46,195 nt of DNA from Candidatus Peribacteraceae bacterium. Its GTDB lineage: Bacteria > Patescibacteriota > Gracilibacteria > Peribacterales > Peribacteraceae. The notes under the pieces are model-generated. The model made no database searches, was not told the DNA's origin, and saw only the letters and a list, made by a program, of their open reading frames with translations. The position numbers and the translations under genes are program-made. Location: NCBI GenBank assembly GCA_028707875.1, contig JAQWAC010000002.1, positions 1 to 46,195 of the forward strand, given 5' to 3'. Of this stretch, positions 5,905-42,785 are shown piece after piece. Positions within the stretch are counted from its first letter, which is position 1. Each line of letters starts with the position of its first letter.

Positions 5905-5975
5905 AGGATGTCATCCTGAGTTCGTCGAAGGATGACGTCCGATGTCATGGTTCGACGAACTCACCATGACATCTT
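5905..5975. repeat. Two-hairpin palindromic repeat, CCTGAG-N-GTCGAAGG / GGTTCGAC-N-TCACCATGAC type
   Basis: TCATCCtgagttcgtcgaaGGATGA followed by GATGTCATGGttcgacgaactcaCCATGACATC; related copies near 40683 and 20106. Confidence 0.7.
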
Positions 5976-11445: not shown

Positions 11446-11542
11446 TGTCGCGAAGCGCGGGTCTTGCGGGTCCCGCGCTGGAGCGACACATTTTGAGGAA
11501 GGGTGGGCCCGCGGGAGGGACACCAGGGGTGGCCATCCCGCG
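11446..11542 (+). repeat. Two-hairpin dispersed element, copy A
   Basis: TGTCGC-GA-AGCGCGGG-loop-CCCGCGCT-GGA-GCGACA followed by CGCGGGAGGGACACC-AGG-GGTGGCCATCCCGCG. Confidence 0.8.
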
Positions 11543-16727: not shown

Positions 16728-16787
16728 GGCACGGTGGTCGCGAACGACAGTGCCATGAGAGAAAAACCGCGAGGTTTGTCTCTCATG
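16728..16787 (+). repeat. Divergent copy B of the two-hairpin element, adjacent to efp stop
   Basis: GGCAC-ggt-GGTCG-cga-ACGAC-a-GTGCC then CATGAGAGAAAAACC-GCGA-GGTTTGTCTCTCATG. Confidence 0.6.
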
Positions 16788-20007: not shown

Positions 20008-20138
20008 GGAGGTGCGAAGTATAGCGGAATAGACGCAAGGATCCTACGTTCTGCGCACAATTCCTTAATTCATTCTTAATCGCATTACCCCCATTCAATC
20101 GTCGCCGGCGCCCTTCGACTCCGCTCAGGACCCCCGCT

Positions 20139-22807: not shown

Positions 22808-24176
22808 GGAGCCACACCGTGTACGCCACCGCACTGTCCTCCCATGCGTGGAGGAAGAGCGCGGCAACGCTCAGCGCGAGGAAGGAGAGAAGCGTTGCAA
22901 TGCGTAATGGATAATTGATAATGGACAATTGTCCATTTTCCATTATCCATTTTCCATTATCGGAAATAAAACGGAGGAGCACTGCCAATACCAGGACAAC
23001 GAACAGGAGAAACCCCATTATCCCCAGTTCCACTCCGATTTGAATATACCAATTTTCGGGAAGATTGGGGCACACACACTCGCGATCCGTCGGCTGAACT
23101 TTCACGCCACCCACGAACACGCAGAGCTTCGGAATGTTCTTCGCCCACGCAGGATCATCCTGCGCGCGGAGGAAGACGCAGGTATCACGCAAATGCGTGC
23201 TGGCCGGCCCCGCCATCCCCAGCCCCTGCCCGAGCGGATTTCTCAGCACTTCCTGCATCGCCAGAATCGGCCGCGTGAGGTGACCGCGCGTGGACCCGAG
23301 CCGCCAGAACACTTGCGGGAAGAGGAGGACGAGAATGATACCGAGAGCGACACATCCCGTCAGGAAGCCATAGAAGACCTTCTTCCCGATCCGCGGCGAC
23401 AGGCCGATGCGGAGCGCAATGAGCGTGGCAACGAACCCGCCGAGGAAGGCGCTGCGCGAGAAGGACATCAGGAGGGCGAGCCCGATGAGTCCGAGCGGAA
23501 GCAAAAGTATCCACCTCCTCTCTTTGAGCAGCCTCACGAGGACGATGCACCACGGAATGAGAAGCCAGAGTCCCAGCTGATTGGGACCGCTCATGGAGGA
23601 CTGGACGCGGCGCAGGCTGGTATCCCCTATCTGCTGGAAGGCCGCCAGCGGCCCGTCGGCGAAGTAGAGGGAATGAACCGACGAATAGCCGAGACGGAGG
23701 AAAAATTTCTGCGGGAGGAGAAAGCCGACGATTCCGTAGACCGCCACGATGCACCCGACAACGATGAGTGTCCTGGAAACGGCGTTCACAAACCATTCCG
23801 ACCACGGCACTCTCCGTGCCATGAAGAAGGCGACGAGCGGAAGAAAATCGTACTTGAAACCGTAGAGCGCGGTCTTTACATCAACCCGCATCATGATCGT
23901 GACAACGAGCGAAAGTACGAGCAGTGCAATGATCAACACATCAATGACATCAATTATCCATTTTCCATTATCCATTTTCCATTTGGCACTCACCCACTCC
24001 AGAACAACCAACAGTACAATGATCCCGAGAAGAAATTCCTTCCACAGCGCGATCACTGTGAGCGGGGCATGTCCCGGCCCTGCAATCAGCTTCGTGCCGG
24101 CGGTCACAAGAAGCGCATGGAACGGCAATGCTGCAAGAAGGAAAAGGGTAAGCCGTTCACGGAGACGTCGGAGCAT
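22776..24176 (-). CDS. O-antigen ligase-like polytopic membrane protein
   Basis: Multiple TM helices; VQSSMSGPNQLGLWLLIPWCIVLVRLL...LLMSFSRSAFLGGFVATLIALR. Confidence 0.8.
   Translation of the reverse strand: MLRRLRERLTLFLLAALPFHALLVTAGTKLIAGPGHAPLTVIALWKEFLLGIIVLLVVLEWVSAKWKMDNGKWIIDVIDVLIIALLVLSLVVTIMMRVDVKTALYGFKYDFLPLVAFFMARRVPWSEWFVNAVSRTLIVVGCIVAVYGIVGFLLPQKFFLRLGYSSVHSLYFADGPLAAFQQIGDTSLRRVQSSMSGPNQLGLWLLIPWCIVLVRLLKERRWILLLPLGLIGLALLMSFSRSAFLGGFVATLIALRIGLSPRIGKKVFYGFLTGCVALGIILVLLFPQVFWRLGSTRGHLTRPILAMQEVLRNPLGQGLGMAGPASTHLRDTCVFLRAQDDPAWAKNIPKLCVFVGGVKVQPTDRECVCPNLPENWYIQIGVELGIMGFLLFVVLVLAVLLRFISDNGKWIMENGQLSIINYPLRIATLLSFLALSVAALFLHAWEDSAVAYTVWLLTAFFLASFL
22908..22963. repeat. 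AT-rich inverted repeat (ATGGATAAT)n/(CCATTATCC)n inside the O-antigen ligase gene
   Basis: AATGGATAATTGATAATGGACAATTGTCCATTTTCCATTATCCATTTTCCATTATC. Confidence 0.85.
23953..23985. repeat. AT-rich repeat of the same family inside the O-antigen ligase gene
   Basis: ATTATCCATTTTCCATTATCCATTTTCCATTTG. Confidence 0.8.
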
Positions 24177-24179
24177 GCG

Positions 24180-24265
24180 AATGGATAATTGAAAATGGAT
24201 AATCCTCACTTCAGTCAATTACGTTTCCATTATCCATTATCCATTATCCATTATCCATTTATTCT
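24180..24265. repeat. AT-rich inverted repeat between O-antigen ligase and epimerase genes
   Basis: AATGGATAATTGAAAATGGATAAT...GTCAATTACGTTTCCATTATCCATTATCCATTATCCATTATCCATTTATT. Confidence 0.85.
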
Positions 24266-24273
24266 ATTGGTTA

Positions 24274-25593
24274 TCAGAGACGCAATCGCGCTTCTTCGTC
24301 CCGGAACACTTCGCCTTTCGCAAGCACCTTTTCCACCGCATCAATGCACTTCGCGCTCACATTCTTCCCGTAGATTTTCGGGGCCTTACGCATGGTTCTA
24401 TTGTCCCATGCATACTCGATGATTGCCTTCACGATCTTCTCATCGACGGGCGGTGCAATCAGGTTGCCGCCGTTCATCGCGGACTCGCTGCGGTCGGACC
24501 CGAACCGGAGCGTGACGCACGGCACGCCCATCACATTCATCTCCTCTTGCATGGAACCGCTGTCCGTTGCGCAAACCGCGGCCTTCGTCATCGCCGCAAT
24601 CACATCCACGTACTCGGACCACACTGGCGAGAAAATGAAGTTCTTGTGCTTCTTCGCAAGAGCCTCCACTTCCTTCCTGAGCCCCAACCGTTCGAACGCG
24701 CGCTCCGTCTGCGTCATCGAGATCAGAAGAACCTTCCGCCCGTCTTTGATGAGAGACACCATGGCGTCGTAGAGGGCGCGGAACCTGCGGTCGGACCCGC
24801 AGTTCTCCCGCCGATGAATGCAGAAGCGCACGAAGTCGCCGTCCGCGAGCGCCGGAAAACGATCGAAGACGGTGGATTGCCCGATCCGCGTGAGCGCCTC
24901 CTCCGTGGCATCCACAACCGAGTTCCCGACGACGAAGATGCGATCTTCCGGAAATCCTTCCGAGAGCATGAACTCCCGATCCAGCTCCACGGGTGCCAGA
25001 TGCACGCCCGTCGCGGCCTCGCTGCATCGCGTATTGAATTGTTCGGGATACGGCTCCAGACTGCCACGTTCCCAGTTTTTGCGGTCTCGAAGGAATGCGT
25101 GCCACGCGGAGACATCGAAAGAGCTGGTATGACGTATTTCGTATTCCGTATTACGAGAATTTCCAACGTCCGCATACGGAATACCGAATACGGAATACTT
25201 CGGTGTGAGCGTCCGGATCCCCGCCTCCACATGCGCCGACGCAAACCCGTGGCAGAATCCCGCGTTGCTCGCCGCCATGGCCGTGGTCGTATCGCCGTGC
25301 ACATATGGAATCACGATCTTGCCCGCCTTTTTGAGCTCGCCGATGACGGAGCCGAGCCGCCCGATGATCTGACTCACGATCTCGTGCATTTCCCCCCGCA
25401 CATTCAGATTGAAGTCCGGCTCCACGCCGAATTCTTTCAGCATCCCGCCGCTCAGATTCTCGCTGTAGTGCTGCCCCGTGTGACCGAGAACCGCCAGATG
25501 TCCGCGTTTCTTCAGTTCGCGGTACAGAGGCACCTGCTTGATGATATCGGGCTTGGTGGCGATGAGGATCAGATGCACATGCCGGTTCGGCAT
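24274..25593 (-). CDS. Non-hydrolysing UDP-N-acetylglucosamine 2-epimerase-like protein
   Basis: HLILIATKPDIIKQVPLYRELKKRGHLAVLGHTGQHYSENL; VHGDTTTAMAASNAGFCHGFASAHVEAGIRT; CATDSGSMQEEMNVMGVPCVTLR. Confidence 0.88.
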   Translation of the reverse strand: MPNRHVHLILIATKPDIIKQVPLYRELKKRGHLAVLGHTGQHYSENLSGGMLKEFGVEPDFNLNVRGEMHEIVSQIIGRLGSVIGELKKAGKIVIPYVHGDTTTAMAASNAGFCHGFASAHVEAGIRTLTPKYSVFGIPYADVGNSRNTEYEIRHTSSFDVSAWHAFLRDRKNWERGSLEPYPEQFNTRCSEAATGVHLAPVELDREFMLSEGFPEDRIFVVGNSVVDATEEALTRIGQSTVFDRFPALADGDFVRFCIHRRENCGSDRRFRALYDAMVSLIKDGRKVLLISMTQTERAFERLGLRKEVEALAKKHKNFIFSPVWSEYVDVIAAMTKAAVCATDSGSMQEEMNVMGVPCVTLRFGSDRSESAMNGGNLIAPPVDEKIVKAIIEYAWDNRTMRKAPKIYGKNVSAKCIDAVEKVLAKGEVFRDEEARLRL

Positions 25594-25728
25594 GCCCGCT
25601 GTTTCCTCGAGGAATCGCGGTGAACGGAATGTGATCTCCTTCATAGGCGTATGTGTTGTCAGGATAGCTTGCATGCCGCCATGATGAAACTATAATTCCG
25701 CTCCTCTCTTCCCCCCCCCTTCCCGCCC

Positions 25729-26151
25729 ATGGGTATCCCCACGATTCCGAGCTCATCCAAAATGATCGGTACTCCCGAGAATGAAAGAATCGCTCTCGAC
25801 CCGCGCGATCGAAAGGTCGCGGCCGAAGTGGCTCTGGCGTCCAATCTGGTCCCGCCACGCGCCCCGTCGGAATTGAAAAAATATCAGGATGCATTTCGGA
25901 CGGAGATGGAACAGGCGATTGCGGAATTCCAACGTCAATTCCCGGAAGCGACTGTGACGCACACCATGTCGGGAGTCGGCACGATTTCCATGATCACCTC
26001 CGCTTATGACTTCAAAAGAATCCAAAATGGATTGGATGCGGAAGACAATGCGCTGCATGGAGGGAAAGTGCTCTCCAGCCTCCACCTCGATCATGAGGAA
26101 ATCCCGGCCGCACTGACGACGGATCAGCTTTATGGAAGAGGGCTGGCGTGA
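25729..26151 (+). CDS. Hypothetical protein
   Basis: ORF of 140 aa in a gap between opposing genes; no recognised motif. Confidence 0.45.
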   Translation: MGIPTIPSSSKMIGTPENERIALDPRDRKVAAEVALASNLVPPRAPSELKKYQDAFRTEMEQAIAEFQRQFPEATVTHTMSGVGTISMITSAYDFKRIQNGLDAEDNALHGGKVLSSLHLDHEEIPAALTTDQLYGRGLA

Positions 26152-26158
26152 AGCCAAG

Positions 26159-26827
26159 TCAGACACGCCCCTCTGAGACCTTCGTTTCGGTAAGGGAAGC
26201 TCCTTTGGTGACGATGCCGGGGACTTCCAATACTTCTCTCTTCGCAAGTTTGTCTCCTTCAAACATGTAGATGTAGGGCGTACAGAGGCCGATTTCCAGA
26301 CTTGCCGCCGCCTCGGGCTCCAGATGCTCCAGATACCGGATCATGGGACGCAAACTGTTGCCATGCGCGGCAACCAAAACAGTTTCGCCCTTCACGACGA
26401 AGGGGAGAATATACTGAAGGAAATACGGCTTCGTCCGGCGTTCACAATCCTCATGACTTTCCCCGTTGGGCGGCTGAACCGAAAAACTTCTGCGCCACTG
26501 CTGTACTTTATCCACACCGTATTTCTGAACGGTTTCCGCTTTGTTGAGCCCCTGTAAATCCCCGTAGAAACGTTCATTGAGAGCGGAGTCATAATCCACA
26601 GGAATCTTCGTCTGCCTGAGCTCTTTCAAAATCACATCAAGTGTCCGGTTCGCACGAATCAAGCGTGAGGTGAAAGCACGATCAAAATGATAGGAGCGCA
26701 GTACTTTGGCACAGGAAACCGCATCATTCTCTCCGCGTTCCGTCAGGGGTACATCGGACCACCCGGTGAAGCGGTTCTCCAGATTCCACTGAGATTGGCC
26801 ATGACGAAGCAGTATGAGCGTTCCCAT
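26159..26827 (-). CDS. gpmA: 2,3-bisphosphoglycerate-dependent phosphoglycerate mutase
   Basis: LILLRHGQSQWNLENRFTGWSDVPLTERG...LNERFYGDLQGLNKAE...AAHGNSLRPMIRYLE. Confidence 0.95.
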   Translation of the reverse strand: MGTLILLRHGQSQWNLENRFTGWSDVPLTERGENDAVSCAKVLRSYHFDRAFTSRLIRANRTLDVILKELRQTKIPVDYDSALNERFYGDLQGLNKAETVQKYGVDKVQQWRRSFSVQPPNGESHEDCERRTKPYFLQYILPFVVKGETVLVAAHGNSLRPMIRYLEHLEPEAAASLEIGLCTPYIYMFEGDKLAKREVLEVPGIVTKGASLTETKVSEGRV

Positions 26828-26885
26828 GACTTTCAGCTTACCAGCTTTCGGAATTCTGTACACGCGGTATACAATGACAACAGTC

Positions 26886-27203
26886 ATGGACATCCGCCGC
26901 ATTTCACATCTCCGGTTCTTCCACACCATCGCGTGGGCGGTGCTCGTCTGCGGACTCGTCGTCGGCGCGGCGGCATCCCTCGGGCGCGCAACCCTGAACC
27001 TGAAGGCGGCACTCACCGACAAGCCGGATATCGCCATCTATCTTCTCTTACCCGAGGAAAAAATCGGGAGGACGGTGCTTCTGCGGGATCTGGATACCGA
27101 GCGCGATTACCTCGCGGAAACGAAGGACGGACCAAAGCTCGTCCGCCTGAAAAAAACGGACAAGCAGTGGTTCGTATCGAGCGTGGAGCAACTCCGCGAG
27201 TAA
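26886..27203 (+). CDS. Small single-TM hypothetical protein
   Basis: MDIRRISHLRFFHTIAWAVLVCGLVVGAAASL...; ORF of ~105 aa. Confidence 0.5.
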   Translation: MDIRRISHLRFFHTIAWAVLVCGLVVGAAASLGRATLNLKAALTDKPDIAIYLLLPEEKIGRTVLLRDLDTERDYLAETKDGPKLVRLKKTDKQWFVSSVEQLRE

Positions 27204-27205
27204 TA

Positions 27206-27276
27206 CCTAATGGATAATGAACATTGGAAAATGGATAATCATCCATTGTCAATTTTCCATTATCCATTCACCAAAG
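27206..27276. repeat. AT-rich inverted repeat, intergenic
   Basis: AATGGATAATGAACATTGGAAAATGGATAATCATCCATTGTCAATTTTCCATTATCCATT. Confidence 0.85.
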
Positions 27277-27299
27277 GGGGAAAGTTCTATAATCACCCT

Positions 27300-28049
27300 A
27301 TGCCCCGTGTCGTTCTCCTCGGCGTTCCTCTCGATCCGGTCACGCCGGAAGAAGCCGTCGCATGTATCAAGAGATATCTGGCTGAAGAAAAGCAGTACCA
27401 TGTGATGACCCCGAACAGCGAAATGCTCGTGGAAGCCTCCCGAAATCCCGCATTTCGTGCGCTCCTCAATGATACTTCGCTCAATATCCCCGATTCAGCC
27501 GGGCTCCTCTGGATGGCGAAACTCACGGGACAGTCGCTCCCTGAGCGCGTCACCGGCGTCGATACGGTTTCCGCTCTCTGCCGGGAACTCACGGAGGAAC
27601 ATCCCGTCTTCCTGTTGGGTGCGGCTCCGGGAGTGGCGGAACTGGCGGCCGAAAAATTGAAGGCCATGAATCCCCGCCTGAAAATCGCAGGCTGCCTCAG
27701 CGGATCTCCGCGCGAAGAGGATGCACAAACGATCATCGAAAAAATCCGTGCCGTTTCGCCTCATCTCCTGCTCGTTGCGTACGGAGCACCGACGCAAGAT
27801 CAATGGATTCAGCGACACATCAGGGATCTTCCTTCGGTTCGTGTCGCCATGGGCATCGGCGGCACCTTCGACTTTCTGGCGGGAACACGGAAGCGCGCTC
27901 CGGTCTTTCTGCAAAAAACGGGCCTCGAATGGATGTGGCGGCTGTTCCGGGAACCAAAGCGCATCGGAAGAATCTGGAATGCAGTTGTTATCTTTCCCCT
28001 GCTGGTTGTGCAATACGGAAGAGGCAATCCGGGAAAGGATAAGAAATAG
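27300..28049 (+). CDS. WecG/TagA/CpsF-family glycosyltransferase
   Basis: VMTPNSEMLVEASRNPAFRALLNDTSLNIPDSAGLLWMAK...RVTGVDTV...VAYGAPTQDQWI...VAMGIGGTFDFLAGTRKRAPVFLQKTGLEWMWRLFREPKR. Confidence 0.96.
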   Translation: MPRVVLLGVPLDPVTPEEAVACIKRYLAEEKQYHVMTPNSEMLVEASRNPAFRALLNDTSLNIPDSAGLLWMAKLTGQSLPERVTGVDTVSALCRELTEEHPVFLLGAAPGVAELAAEKLKAMNPRLKIAGCLSGSPREEDAQTIIEKIRAVSPHLLLVAYGAPTQDQWIQRHIRDLPSVRVAMGIGGTFDFLAGTRKRAPVFLQKTGLEWMWRLFREPKRIGRIWNAVVIFPLLVVQYGRGNPGKDKK

Positions 28050-28112
28050 ATAATGAATAATGGATAATACTTCGTTCAATTATTCATTTTCCATTTTCCA
28101 TTTTCCATTTAT
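28046..28112. repeat. AT-rich inverted repeat, intergenic
   Basis: ATAATGAATAATGGATAATACTTCGTTCAATTATTCATTTTCCATTTTCCATTTTCCATTT. Confidence 0.85.
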
Positions 28113-28124
28113 AGTTGTCGCCCA

Positions 28125-37640: not shown

Positions 37641-37730
37641 TGTCGCGAAGACAGGCTCCGCCTGTCTGGAGCGACACCTCTCAGGGAAAAATGGGTTCGC
37701 GGGAGAAAAACCGCAGGTTTGTCTTCCGCG
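37641..37730 (+). repeat. Two-hairpin dispersed element, copy C
   Basis: TGTCGC-GA-AGACAGGC-TCC-GCCTGTCT-GGA-GCGACA then CGCGGGAGAAAAACC-GCA-GGTTTGTCTTCCGCG. Confidence 0.85.
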
Positions 37731-37732
37731 AT

Positions 37733-38080
37733 TTACTGAATCCCCGCCTCCGTGAGCACCTTCGCGAAGACCTCGGGGTTGTGGATGGCAAGCTCGGAAA
37801 GCACTTTGCGATCAAGCTCGATTTTGTGCTTCCTGAGTCCTGCGACGAGTGCGGAATATTTGGAACCCCGTGCGCGAAGAGCGGCATTCAGGCGGACAAT
37901 CCAGAGTGAGCGGAAATCACGCTTCTTGCGGCGGCGATCCTTGTAGGCATGCTGCCCCGCCTTCATCACCGCTTCATTTGCTTTCCTGAAGGTGGTGGAG
38001 CGCATCCCACGGTATCCCTTCGCAAGCTTGCGGATCTTCTGATGACGACGATGCCGGACTGTTCCTCGTTTGACACGCAT
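37733..38080 (-). CDS. rplT: 50S ribosomal protein L20
   Basis: MRVKRGTVRHRRHQKIRKLAKGYRGMRSTTFRKANEAVMKAGQHAYKDRRRKKRDFRSLWIVRLNAALR. Confidence 0.98.
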   Translation of the reverse strand: MRVKRGTVRHRRHQKIRKLAKGYRGMRSTTFRKANEAVMKAGQHAYKDRRRKKRDFRSLWIVRLNAALRARGSKYSALVAGLRKHKIELDRKVLSELAIHNPEVFAKVLTEAGIQ

Positions 38081-40682: not shown

Positions 40683-40760
40683 AAATTGTCACCCTGAGCG
40701 GAGTCGAAGGGCGACAATTTGGTTTCTGTCTGTGGTTCGACTCCGTTCACCATGACAGGA
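40683..40760. repeat. Two-hairpin palindromic repeat, second copy of the CCTGAG/GTCGAAGG type
   Basis: ATTGTCACCCTgagcggagtcgAAGGGCGACAAT then TGTCTGTGGttcgactccgttcaCCATGACA. Confidence 0.7.
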
Positions 40761-40837: not shown

Positions 40838-41924
40838 GTGGAAGACCTGCTGCAACATCTCCGGACCATAGCCTCCGCGATCTCTACGGGGAAGGACTCT
40901 CTTTGAGGCACGCAAAGTCCCCCACCGGATTGCGGAGCTCTCCGCGCTGACGACGGACGCGGATATCTGGAACGACCAGAAGCGGGCGCAGGGATTGTTC
41001 AATGAACTGAAAATTCTGAAGAAGCAGTGGGAACCCGTGGAGAAGATCGCACGGGAAGTCACCGCTCTCATCGAGATGATCGAAGCCGCTTCCGAGGCGG
41101 AGCGCGCGGAACTGGCGGAGGATGTGGAGAAACTGGAGAAGGACTGGCAGGCGCTCGAAACGCAGCTCTACCTGAGCGGTGAATTCGACGCCCTCAATTG
41201 TTACCTCACGCTGAGCGGCGGAGCCGGCGGCACCGAGGCGCAGGACTGGGCGGCGATGCTCATGCGCATGTACCTCCGCTACTGCGAACGAAAAGGATGG
41301 AAGACCACTCTTCTGGAAAAAACCGACGGACAGGAGGCGGGAATCAAATCGGCGACGATCCACGTGATCGGCGAATTCGCGTACGGGGAACTCAAGTGTG
41401 AGAAGGGAACGCATCGTCTGGTCCGGCTCTCGCCGTTCAACGCGAAGAACCTGCGCCAGACGAGCTTTGCGCTCGTGGAAGCTCTGCCGGAACTCCCCGA
41501 GTCCGCGGATGTCGCGATCAGCCCCTCCGACCTCAAAGTGGATACGTACCGCAGCGGCGGCGCCGGAGGACAGAACGTGAACAAGGTGGAGACGGCGGTG
41601 CGTATCACGCACATCCCCACAGGCATCGTCGTGGCGTGCCAGACCGAACGCAGTCAATCGCAGAATCGCGCGCAGGCGATGAACATGCTCCGCGCGAAGC
41701 TGCTGGAAAAGGAGAGGAAGGAAAAGGAGGAGACGAAGTCGGATCTCAAGGGGGCGCGGAAGAGTGCGGACTTCGGGCAGCAAATCCGCAGCTACGTCCT
41801 GCACCCGTATCAGATGGTGAAGGATCTCCGCACGGATACCGAGACGAGTGACACGACGGGGGTATTGGATGGCGATATCCAGCAGTTCATTGACGCGGAA
41901 TTGAAGCGACTCAGCAGAGAATAA
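40838..41924 (+). CDS. prfB: Peptide chain release factor 2 with programmed +1 frameshift at CTT TGA (40901-40906)
   Basis: Zero frame GTG-start [22 protein letters not shown] then CTTTGA; +1 frame [36 protein letters not shown]...; [19 protein letters not shown]. Confidence 0.95.
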
Positions 41925-41937
41925 TTTTCAGATGAGT

Positions 41938-42028
41938 AGTGCCGAAGTCGGGCTCCGCCCGACTGGAGGCACACCGCTTAAGGGAAGGGTGGGCTCGTGG
42001 GAGGGACACCGTAGGTGGCCATCCCACG
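41938..42028 (+). repeat. Two-hairpin dispersed element, copy D
   Basis: GTGCC-GA-AGTCGGGC-TCC-GCCCGACT-GGA-GGCAC then CGTGGGAGGGACACC-GTA-GGTGGCCATCCCACG. Confidence 0.85.
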
Positions 42029-42031
42029 CAA

Positions 42032-42056
42032 CAAAAAAGCACCCCGAAGGGTGCCT
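42032..42056 (-). terminator. Rho-independent terminator of the histone-fold gene
   Basis: Minus strand GGCACCC-TTCG-GGGTGC followed by TTTTTTTG. Confidence 0.85.
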
Positions 42057-42080
42057 TATTGTTTGAAGTAAACCTGACGA

Positions 42081-42251
42081 TTAAAGATCGCAGGCGCGGA
42101 CGGTCTTGCGGCCGTTCTCCTTTGCACGATCGGCGGCCTTCTTGAGGGCGCCCTCAACATGCTTGCTGAGTGCATCCGCGAGATCACCGGCGGTCATCAT
42201 GTCCAAACCCTTGAGAAGGTCCTTGACCTTGGAAGCGACGACGTAGCTCAT
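42081..42251 (-). CDS. Histone-fold protein (bacterial/archaeal-type small histone), 56 aa
   Basis: MSYVVASKVKDLLKGLDMMTAGDLADALSKHVEGALKKAADRAKENGRKTVRACDL*; AxxRAxxNGRKTVRAxDL matches the histone-fold RKTIKAEDI-type signature; dedicated promoter-like and terminator sequences. Confidence 0.82.
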   Translation of the reverse strand: MSYVVASKVKDLLKGLDMMTAGDLADALSKHVEGALKKAADRAKENGRKTVRACDL

Positions 42252-42284
42252 GAAAAAGGGGGGAGGAAGTAGAAATGCGGGGCA

Positions 42285-42314
42285 ATTCTACGCACCCTCA
42301 AATCACGAATGCAA
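42285..42314 (-). promoter_or_regulatory. Putative sigma70-type promoter of the histone-fold gene
   Basis: Minus strand TTGCAT - 18 bp - TAGAAT. Confidence 0.5.
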
Positions 42315-42494
42315 GCGGAATTTCCCGTCTTTCGGGCAAATTGCGACAAAATATGCAATTGACCTGCCCCCCCTTCCCCCGCCAAACACTTTCCATGAAA
42401 ATGGATGAAATGGTTCAAAAAGCTATTTATATGCATATTTCTTCACTTCTGAGAAACCGTCCAAAACGATGTTGCATCAACGTTAATAATTCGT

Positions 42495-42583
42495 GTGCCG
42501 AAGGCAGGCTTCGCCTGCCTGGAGGCACTCTGTTTAGGAAAAAGAGGGCTCGTGGGAGAGAAACCGTAGGTTTCTCTTCCGCG
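42495..42583 (+). repeat. Two-hairpin dispersed element, copy E
   Basis: GTGCC-GA-AGGCAGGC-TTC-GCCTGCCT-GGA-GGCAC then CGTGGGAGAGAAACC-GTA-GGTTTCTCTTCCGCG. Confidence 0.85.
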
Positions 42584-42588
42584 CAGTG

Positions 42589-42604
42589 TGGCGGAGGGAC
42601 AGGG
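42589..42604. repeat. 16-bp direct repeat of the tRNA-Ser 3' end
   Basis: TGGCGGAGGGACAGGG identical to 42694-42709. Confidence 0.85.
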
Positions 42605-42693: not shown

Positions 42694-42785
42694 TGGCGGA
42701 GGGACAGGGATTCGAACCCTGGAACCCCTTTATGGGGGTTACGCGATTTCGAGTCGCGCGCCTTCGACCACTCGGCCATCCCTCC
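42694..42785 (-). tRNA. tRNA-Ser(CGA), CCA encoded
   Basis: GGAGGGATGGCCGAGTGGTCGAAGGCGCGCGACTCGAAATCGCGTAACCCCCATAAAGGGGTTCCAGGGTTCGAATCCCTGTCCCTCCGCCA; long variable arm. Confidence 0.97.

Follow-up and report, generated by a model that had tools for sequence, protein, structure and literature searches.

A Peribacteraceae-Specific Dispersed DNA Element Whose Linker Mirrors a Hairpin Arm and Whose Folded Strand Is Predicted to Form a Triplex

Peribacteraceae genomes carry a non-coding DNA element, some 89 nt long and dispersed, that is specific to this family, with only rare weak matches outside it, and in which the purine tract of a linker, read in reverse, covaries with one arm of the hairpin that follows. 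From the sequences of its many copies, we moderately favor the view that this is a REP-like dispersed element preserved by virtue of how one of its strands folds, with a triplex and mobility as its two predicted properties. The finding describes a major dispersed element of the Peribacteria, which are tiny uncultured bacteria, together with an unexplained rule of precise placement at gene boundaries. The biological role of DNA triplexes in bacteria is a long-standing open question; a triplex formed by this element would be, to our knowledge, the first DNA triplex with base-by-base covariation support. Neither the covariation of linker and hairpin 2 nor the genome-wide flush position of hairpin-2 ends was noticed in a first-pass annotation of the DNA described here.

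Architecture and distribution of the element

The window, the whole stretch of DNA that was analyzed, comprises 46,195 nt of a Candidatus Peribacteraceae bacterium whose assembly totals 1.32 Mb in 74 contigs. Twelve copies aligned without gaps give a unit length of 89 nt: hairpin 1 (a 5-bp outer stem, a GA/GGA internal loop, an 8-bp inner stem, and a loop of 3 nt, longer in certain copies), a linker of 22 nt, and hairpin 2 (a 15-bp stem and a 3-nt loop). An A-rich 5' flank comes in addition to this unit. The GA/GGA loop is nearly invariant in an alignment of 48 copies that was itself chosen for length (GA 48/48, GGA 47/48); the 193 intact copies used below for positions could not serve for this measure, because they had been pre-filtered for an intact hairpin 1. 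The copies in the window, and the parts of copy E, are as follows.

11447..11542, + strand: copy A, full element with a long hairpin-1 loop (R1 match, 63.9 bits)
16728..16758, + strand: a different hairpin, GGCACGGTGGTCGCGAACGACAGTGCC, preceding hairpin 2 of copy B (from sequence)
16754..16787, + strand: copy B, hairpin 2 only (from sequence; R1 partial match, 57–89)
37642..37730, + strand: copy C, full element (R1 match, 104.1 bits)
41939..42028, + strand: copy D, full element (R1, 90.2 bits)
42495..42583, + strand: copy E, full element (R1, 108.3 bits)
42495..42528, + strand: hairpin 1 of copy E (5-bp outer stem, GA/GGA loop, 8-bp inner stem, 3-nt loop)
42540..42548, + strand: linker segment of copy E, model columns 46–54, proposed third strand (from the mirror relation)
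42551..42583, + strand: hairpin 2 of copy E (15-bp stem, loop GTA)

Copies A, C, D, and E were recovered no more than 1 nt from where the first-pass annotation had put them, each with outer stem, GA/GGA loop, inner stem, linker, and hairpin 2. Copy B, which had been taken for a divergent full copy, instead lacks hairpin 1 and linker and consists of a hairpin 2 preceded by another hairpin; related CATGGCAC..GTGCCATG hairpins are found at the hairpin-2 foot in other copies (loci L055 and L023). The two subtypes of hairpin 2 that had been proposed give way to far more, there being 29 distinct 7-nt arm cores. It was correctly noted that two copies abut stop codons: copy B ends 1 nt from that of efp (16789), and the hairpin-2 end of copy C lies 2 nt from that of rplT (37733–37735, − strand), both genes being confirmed by Pfam. 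Copy A is intergenic, with nth (−) on one side and an exonuclease gene (+) on the other. Copy D lies, on its hairpin-1 side, 14 nt past a release-factor gene (40995–41924), and its hairpin-2 end is flush with the intrinsic-terminator T-tract of a convergent small gene (42081–42251, −). The hairpin-2 end of copy E is 5 nt from a 16-nt duplicate of a tRNA-Ser 3' end.

Several other features of the window and of related loci were recorded. The 16-nt duplicate of the tRNA-Ser 3' end adjoining copy E, TGGCGGAGGGACAGGG (42589–42604 and 42694–42709), is about 100 nt from the intact gene and resembles the attachment-site duplication left by an integrated element. Intergenic clusters of TCCATTATCCATTTTCCATT repeats in 7/14-nt units, with inverted copies, occupy 22885–28124. 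Hairpin repeats of the form CCTGAGC..GTCGAAGG occur at 20109–20129, 40693–40713, and 5907–5973, and hairpins of the CCTGAGC type form nested insertions within the hairpin 2 loop in L140, L144, and L163.

The genome to which the window belongs holds about 73 copies by covariance model at E <= 0.01, a count to be read with the roughness of covariance-model E-values and with genomes that are mostly MAGs. By the same means, 23 of the 35 further family genomes tested positive, with 37 copies in G027 (complete, single-contig), 34 in G012, and 29 in G006; 23 genomes of other families gave one weak match. A wider sample of 288 genomes of the class included 57 family members, 41 of them positive, and among other families 8 genomes with one to three weak matches each. 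When the exact hairpin-1 pattern was sought in GTDB genomes, Peribacteria or Peregrinibacteria made up 79 of 80 among the matches listed. The pattern was found in no viral contig of IMG/VR, and a viral origin was rejected on that ground. A published account of five complete Peribacteria genomes makes no mention of a repeat of this kind in the passages located (PMC4736985).

Covariation, the linker mirror, and the strand that probably folds

The first-pass annotation had claimed compensatory changes in the stems, and these stand far above chance in both a 12-copy and a 48-copy test. Double-sided changes were found in 14 of 28 stem pairs in the 12 copies, whose covariation score was reached by none of 500 shuffles. 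The 48 copies, taken from many genomes, show 199 double-change cells where shuffles give 64 ± 8.6, and the signal is abolished when partners are shifted by 1–3 columns; copy counts such as these overstate independence, because the copies are related by descent. Folded as DNA, single copies give z scores of −4 to −5.6 relative to their own shuffles. The covariation holds across genera, which supports the earlier suggestion of selection on, or copying through, nucleic-acid structure. That suggestion was to be abandoned if additional copies failed to covary, or if the element proved to belong to a family of REPs or terminators already described. No such identity emerged: Rfam covariance models matched nothing in the window at gathering score except one tRNA, and nothing over copies D and E at E up to 1; the composition of the flanks showed the hairpin foot to lack an unpaired GTAG or CGTC; and the element is accompanied by no REP-associated transposase.

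The linker, described earlier as purine-rich, is so, and is not merely that. Its purine tract reversed is the 5' arm of hairpin 2, with G opposite G and A or T opposite A, as in GGGAAAAGAGAG-CTCAT-GAGAGAAAAACC (L029), GGGAAAGGGGTG-TCCGT-GAGGGGAAAACC (L041), and GGGAAAGGATTG-CTCAT-GAAAGGAAAACC (L252). With G:G, A:A, and T:A scored as matches, 81 distinct pairs score 0.84 at one register, compared with <=0.57 at other mirror registers, <=0.60 at direct registers, and 0.65 ± 0.015 for re-paired copies. Over the 29 arm types the score is 0.91, best at register 0, and none of 5,000 shuffles (0.62 ± 0.03) was as high. The covariance model left the linker unstructured, and therefore the mirror signal cannot stem from the model. 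A linker acting as a direct repeat that competes for the 3' arm was rejected, since direct registers score far below the mirror. In an unbiased ranking of all 3,916 column pairs from 48 gap-free copies by mutual information, the top ten are stem pairs, and the mirror pairs 49-65, 53-61, 52-62, and 51-63 rank 11, 13, 14, and 29. Linker column 52 tracks arm column 62, not the wobble partner of 62, column 84; at G.T wobble sites of the arm the linker still follows the purine arm, with G in 85 of 88 cells.

The mirror relation might reflect, instead of a triplex, the descent of subtypes or a protein that reads both tracts, given that the copies have common ancestry and that many cores (GAGAG, GGGAGGG, GGAAGG) are themselves mirror-symmetric. 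Arm types whose core is not mirror-symmetric follow the mirror too, however, scoring 0.89 where the best direct register reaches 0.69, and the permutations concur with three separate sets in which the relation was replicated (the window's own genome, G027, and other genomes). The partner columns picked out by mutual information are exactly the mirror ones, and linker T stands opposite A in 96 cells and opposite G in 6; a rule that lets A or T face A but almost never sets T against G is what the triplet code prescribes. We consider either of these origins quite improbable.

In the purine-motif triplex code, G lies on G and A or T on A, the third strand running antiparallel to the purine arm, and in class I motifs the third-strand domain is 5', followed by the purine arm and then the pyrimidine arm (Holder et al. 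2015, PMC4666352). One strand of the element has this order, as linker, hairpin 2 5' arm, and hairpin 2 3' arm, and its antiparallel linker gives G.GC, A.AT, and T.AT triads at the score reported above for the arm types. The published search asked for at least six triads, at most one mismatch above seven, and loops of 1–6 nt (PMC4666352); most arm types have 6–9 matching triads, the arms running on past them, and the purine tract is short and in some subtypes interrupted by a C. The mirror code of linker and arm is that of a class I purine-motif intrastrand triplex, and the triplex itself is a prediction from it.

Which strand would fold is indicated by the imperfections of hairpin 2. On the + strand it reads as G.T in 95 cells but as A.C in only 15, and A.G mismatches number about 100, an imbalance that points to the + strand as the folded one; 64 of the 95 G.T cells fall in one column, and what the wobbles suggest about the strand leans largely on that column. 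The minus strand would, we infer, be limited to a pyrimidine-motif triplex, a misfit with the positions where T replaces A. RNA does not form purine-motif triplexes, as cited by Holder et al. (PMC4666352), and we conclude that the + strand probably folds as DNA.

Placement at gene boundaries and turnover

Genes in the loci were called with a codon-usage caller written for this analysis. The 193 intact copies are flush with a neighboring feature on the hairpin-2 side in 121 cases and on the hairpin-1 side in 7. Hairpin-2 ends are flush with a stop codon in 63 copies, with a tRNA 3' end (3–8 nt) in 20, with an intrinsic terminator in 27, and with a tRNA 5' end (5–11 nt) in 11; within 60 nt of a tRNA on this side, no copy lies at any other distance. 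Where a convergent gene is the neighbor (123 copies), 49 copies have 0–2 nt between its stop codon and the hairpin-2 end, against 59 of 1,653 in a random placement control. Some of the remaining copies adjoin promoter-like sequence; others lie by a 23S rRNA exon that neighbors a group I intron.

Such an intron was located in the 23S rRNA genes of two Peribacteria (L244:14029–18017 and L059:534–3089), and about seven loci have an element copy within a few nucleotides of one and the same 23S exon start. A separate sequence, CCAAACrGCCGTTGAGCAGGGACGCTATGCTCCTGG, is conserved a few nucleotides past hairpin 2 in L038, L242, L103, and L158; it has no match in Rfam and is perhaps an unannotated RNA or leader.

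Three simple ideas about the element and its neighbors were rejected. Gradual erosion of a spacer as the cause of the flush position is contradicted by high-scoring copies that are about as flush as low-scoring ones, or more so, and by other repeat families in the same genomes, which show no flush placement. A hairpin in the neighboring coding end is not the insertion target, such gene ends folding no better than controls; and the element does not truncate genes, most orthologs ending at the same residue.

The main rival to a folded single strand of DNA is an RNA 3'-end element on the strand of the flush gene, which would terminate, protect, or process RNA, with copies elsewhere as strays. Read in this way, the stop codon (or tRNA CCA) is followed by hairpin 2, a pyrimidine tract, hairpin 1, and a T-rich tail. 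Such an element would likewise be found after gene 3' ends, as 83 copies at stop codons or tRNA 3' ends are, along with the 27 at terminators; the RNA folds are strong, and the neighboring genes are untruncated, with conserved C-termini. However, 11 copies are found at tRNA 5' ends and others at promoter-like sequence, and the 27 lie beyond an intrinsic terminator that already exists. The tail past hairpin 1 reads RRN and then about 60–70% T at positions 4–8, not the immediate T run of an intrinsic terminator, and only 52 of 187 tails contain TTTT. The wobbles and mismatches favor the opposite strand, and a linker T:A would become A:A in a pyrimidine-motif triplex of that other strand, a misfit. 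On balance we regard an RNA 3'-end element as rather unlikely.

Comparison with G027 speaks to turnover. Among 45 flush genes with an ortholog in that genome, the element is present there at 4, and most of the proteins share their last residue. An empty tRNA-Arg site reads ..AACAGAAAAAG/TGG.. in G027 and ..ATCAAAAAACG(element)TTCTT/TGG.. in the filled genome; next to the element, a 13-nt spacer is absent at a tRNA-Gly site and a 25-nt spacer at a site upstream of a TATACT promoter-like box. The A-rich 5' flank is old sequence at the tRNA-Arg and tRNA-Gly sites, not at the TATACT-box site, and may belong either to the target or to the element. The rplT loci of relatives were too diverged for the empty site of copy C to be rebuilt, and neither an insertion between near-identical strains nor a target-site duplication was seen. 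Pairs of copies are inverted, hairpin 1 to hairpin 1, in 7 cases and tandem in 2, with none joined hairpin 2 to hairpin 2. In G027 the lagging strand carries the element's + strand in 23 of 33 cases.

Possible mobility and likeness to known systems

The case for mobility comes from presence and absence between diverged genomes, because none of the transposase, reverse transcriptase, and integrase families tested tracks copy number. Reverse transcriptase was rejected as a mobilizer for want of any correlation with copy number, and a tyrosine integrase acting on the element as on attC was rejected because PF00589 proteins number one or two in each genome, whether copies are many or absent.

The element could also be an ordinary REP/BIME-type sequence that owes its movement to an IS200/IS605-type (RAYT, Y1) transposase working in trans or no longer present; it has intergenic hairpins with conserved mismatches, tens of copies, and some head-to-head pairs, and the family does have Y1 transposases. 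These neither track copy number nor lie near copies, and RAYT mobilization was rejected. They are absent from G027 (a complete genome with 37 copies), from G012 (34 copies), and from G017 (11), several are present in some low- or zero-copy genomes, and the loci retrieved around ten Y1 genes contain no element. The missing tag at the hairpin foot also counts against an ordinary REP/BIME origin, which we judge unlikely. Open frames of about 1,000–1,060 aa with a Y1-transposase-like domain, an unusual size for that domain, were seen in several Peribacteria genomes (L180, L182, L183, and L184).

For the fold-maintained element that we favor, the following course may be proposed. The + strand would become single-stranded as an intermediate of replication, repair, or transfer; hairpin 2 and the linker would then form a class I purine-motif intrastrand triplex, with the linker occupying the hairpin-2 groove as reverse-Hoogsteen strand, and hairpin 1 would present the GA/GGA bulge. 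It is this fold that a protein, or the machinery of replication, would encounter. We are less sure that the element is a non-autonomous REP-like mobile element recognized as folded single-stranded DNA, and that it is joined beside A/T-rich tracts at gene ends, which would bring hairpin 2 directly against the neighboring functional unit. No supportable mechanism explains the precise flush position. It is a tentative and somewhat doubtful proposal that some enzyme of an ultra-small bacterium recognizes a mobile family through its triplex-containing folded strand and sets it flush at functional units such as stop codons, tRNA ends, terminators, and promoters.

Like intrinsic terminators, the element has GC-rich hairpins at gene 3' ends and, on one strand, a T-rich tail after hairpin 1; unlike them, it has a weak tail and a dispersed conserved sequence, and it also occurs at tRNA 5' ends and behind terminators. 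With REP/BIME sequences (PMC2817692, PMC3733652) it shares short intergenic palindromes, stem mismatches, tens of copies, and dimers; it differs in lacking a GTAG/CGTC tag and an associated RAYT, and in having two hairpins with a third strand and a one-sided flush position.

The closest parallels are the BoxC/PIT elements and TM-ECO (PMC4666352), which are likewise intergenic repeats with a single strand capable of a purine-motif triplex. The triads G.GC, A.AT, and T.AT are common to the element and the bacterial intrastrand triplex motifs, and BoxC motifs also form inverted pairs (PMC4666352). The Escherichia coli BoxC motif is a single, nearly invariant, 37-nt G/C-rich class II sequence at no fixed distance from genes (PMC4666352), whereas the present element is A/G-rich, follows the class I order, comes in about 29 arm types with matching third strands, carries an additional hairpin 1 with its GA/GGA loop, and lies flush at gene boundaries. 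Covariation is not mentioned in the main text of Holder et al. (PMC4666352), and the sequence of BoxC alone cannot show that its triplex matters, because it is nearly invariant. In the element, third strand and purine arm change by the triplet code across dozens of natural variants, and the predicted triplex is therefore directly testable, with these variants as a ready-made compensatory set.
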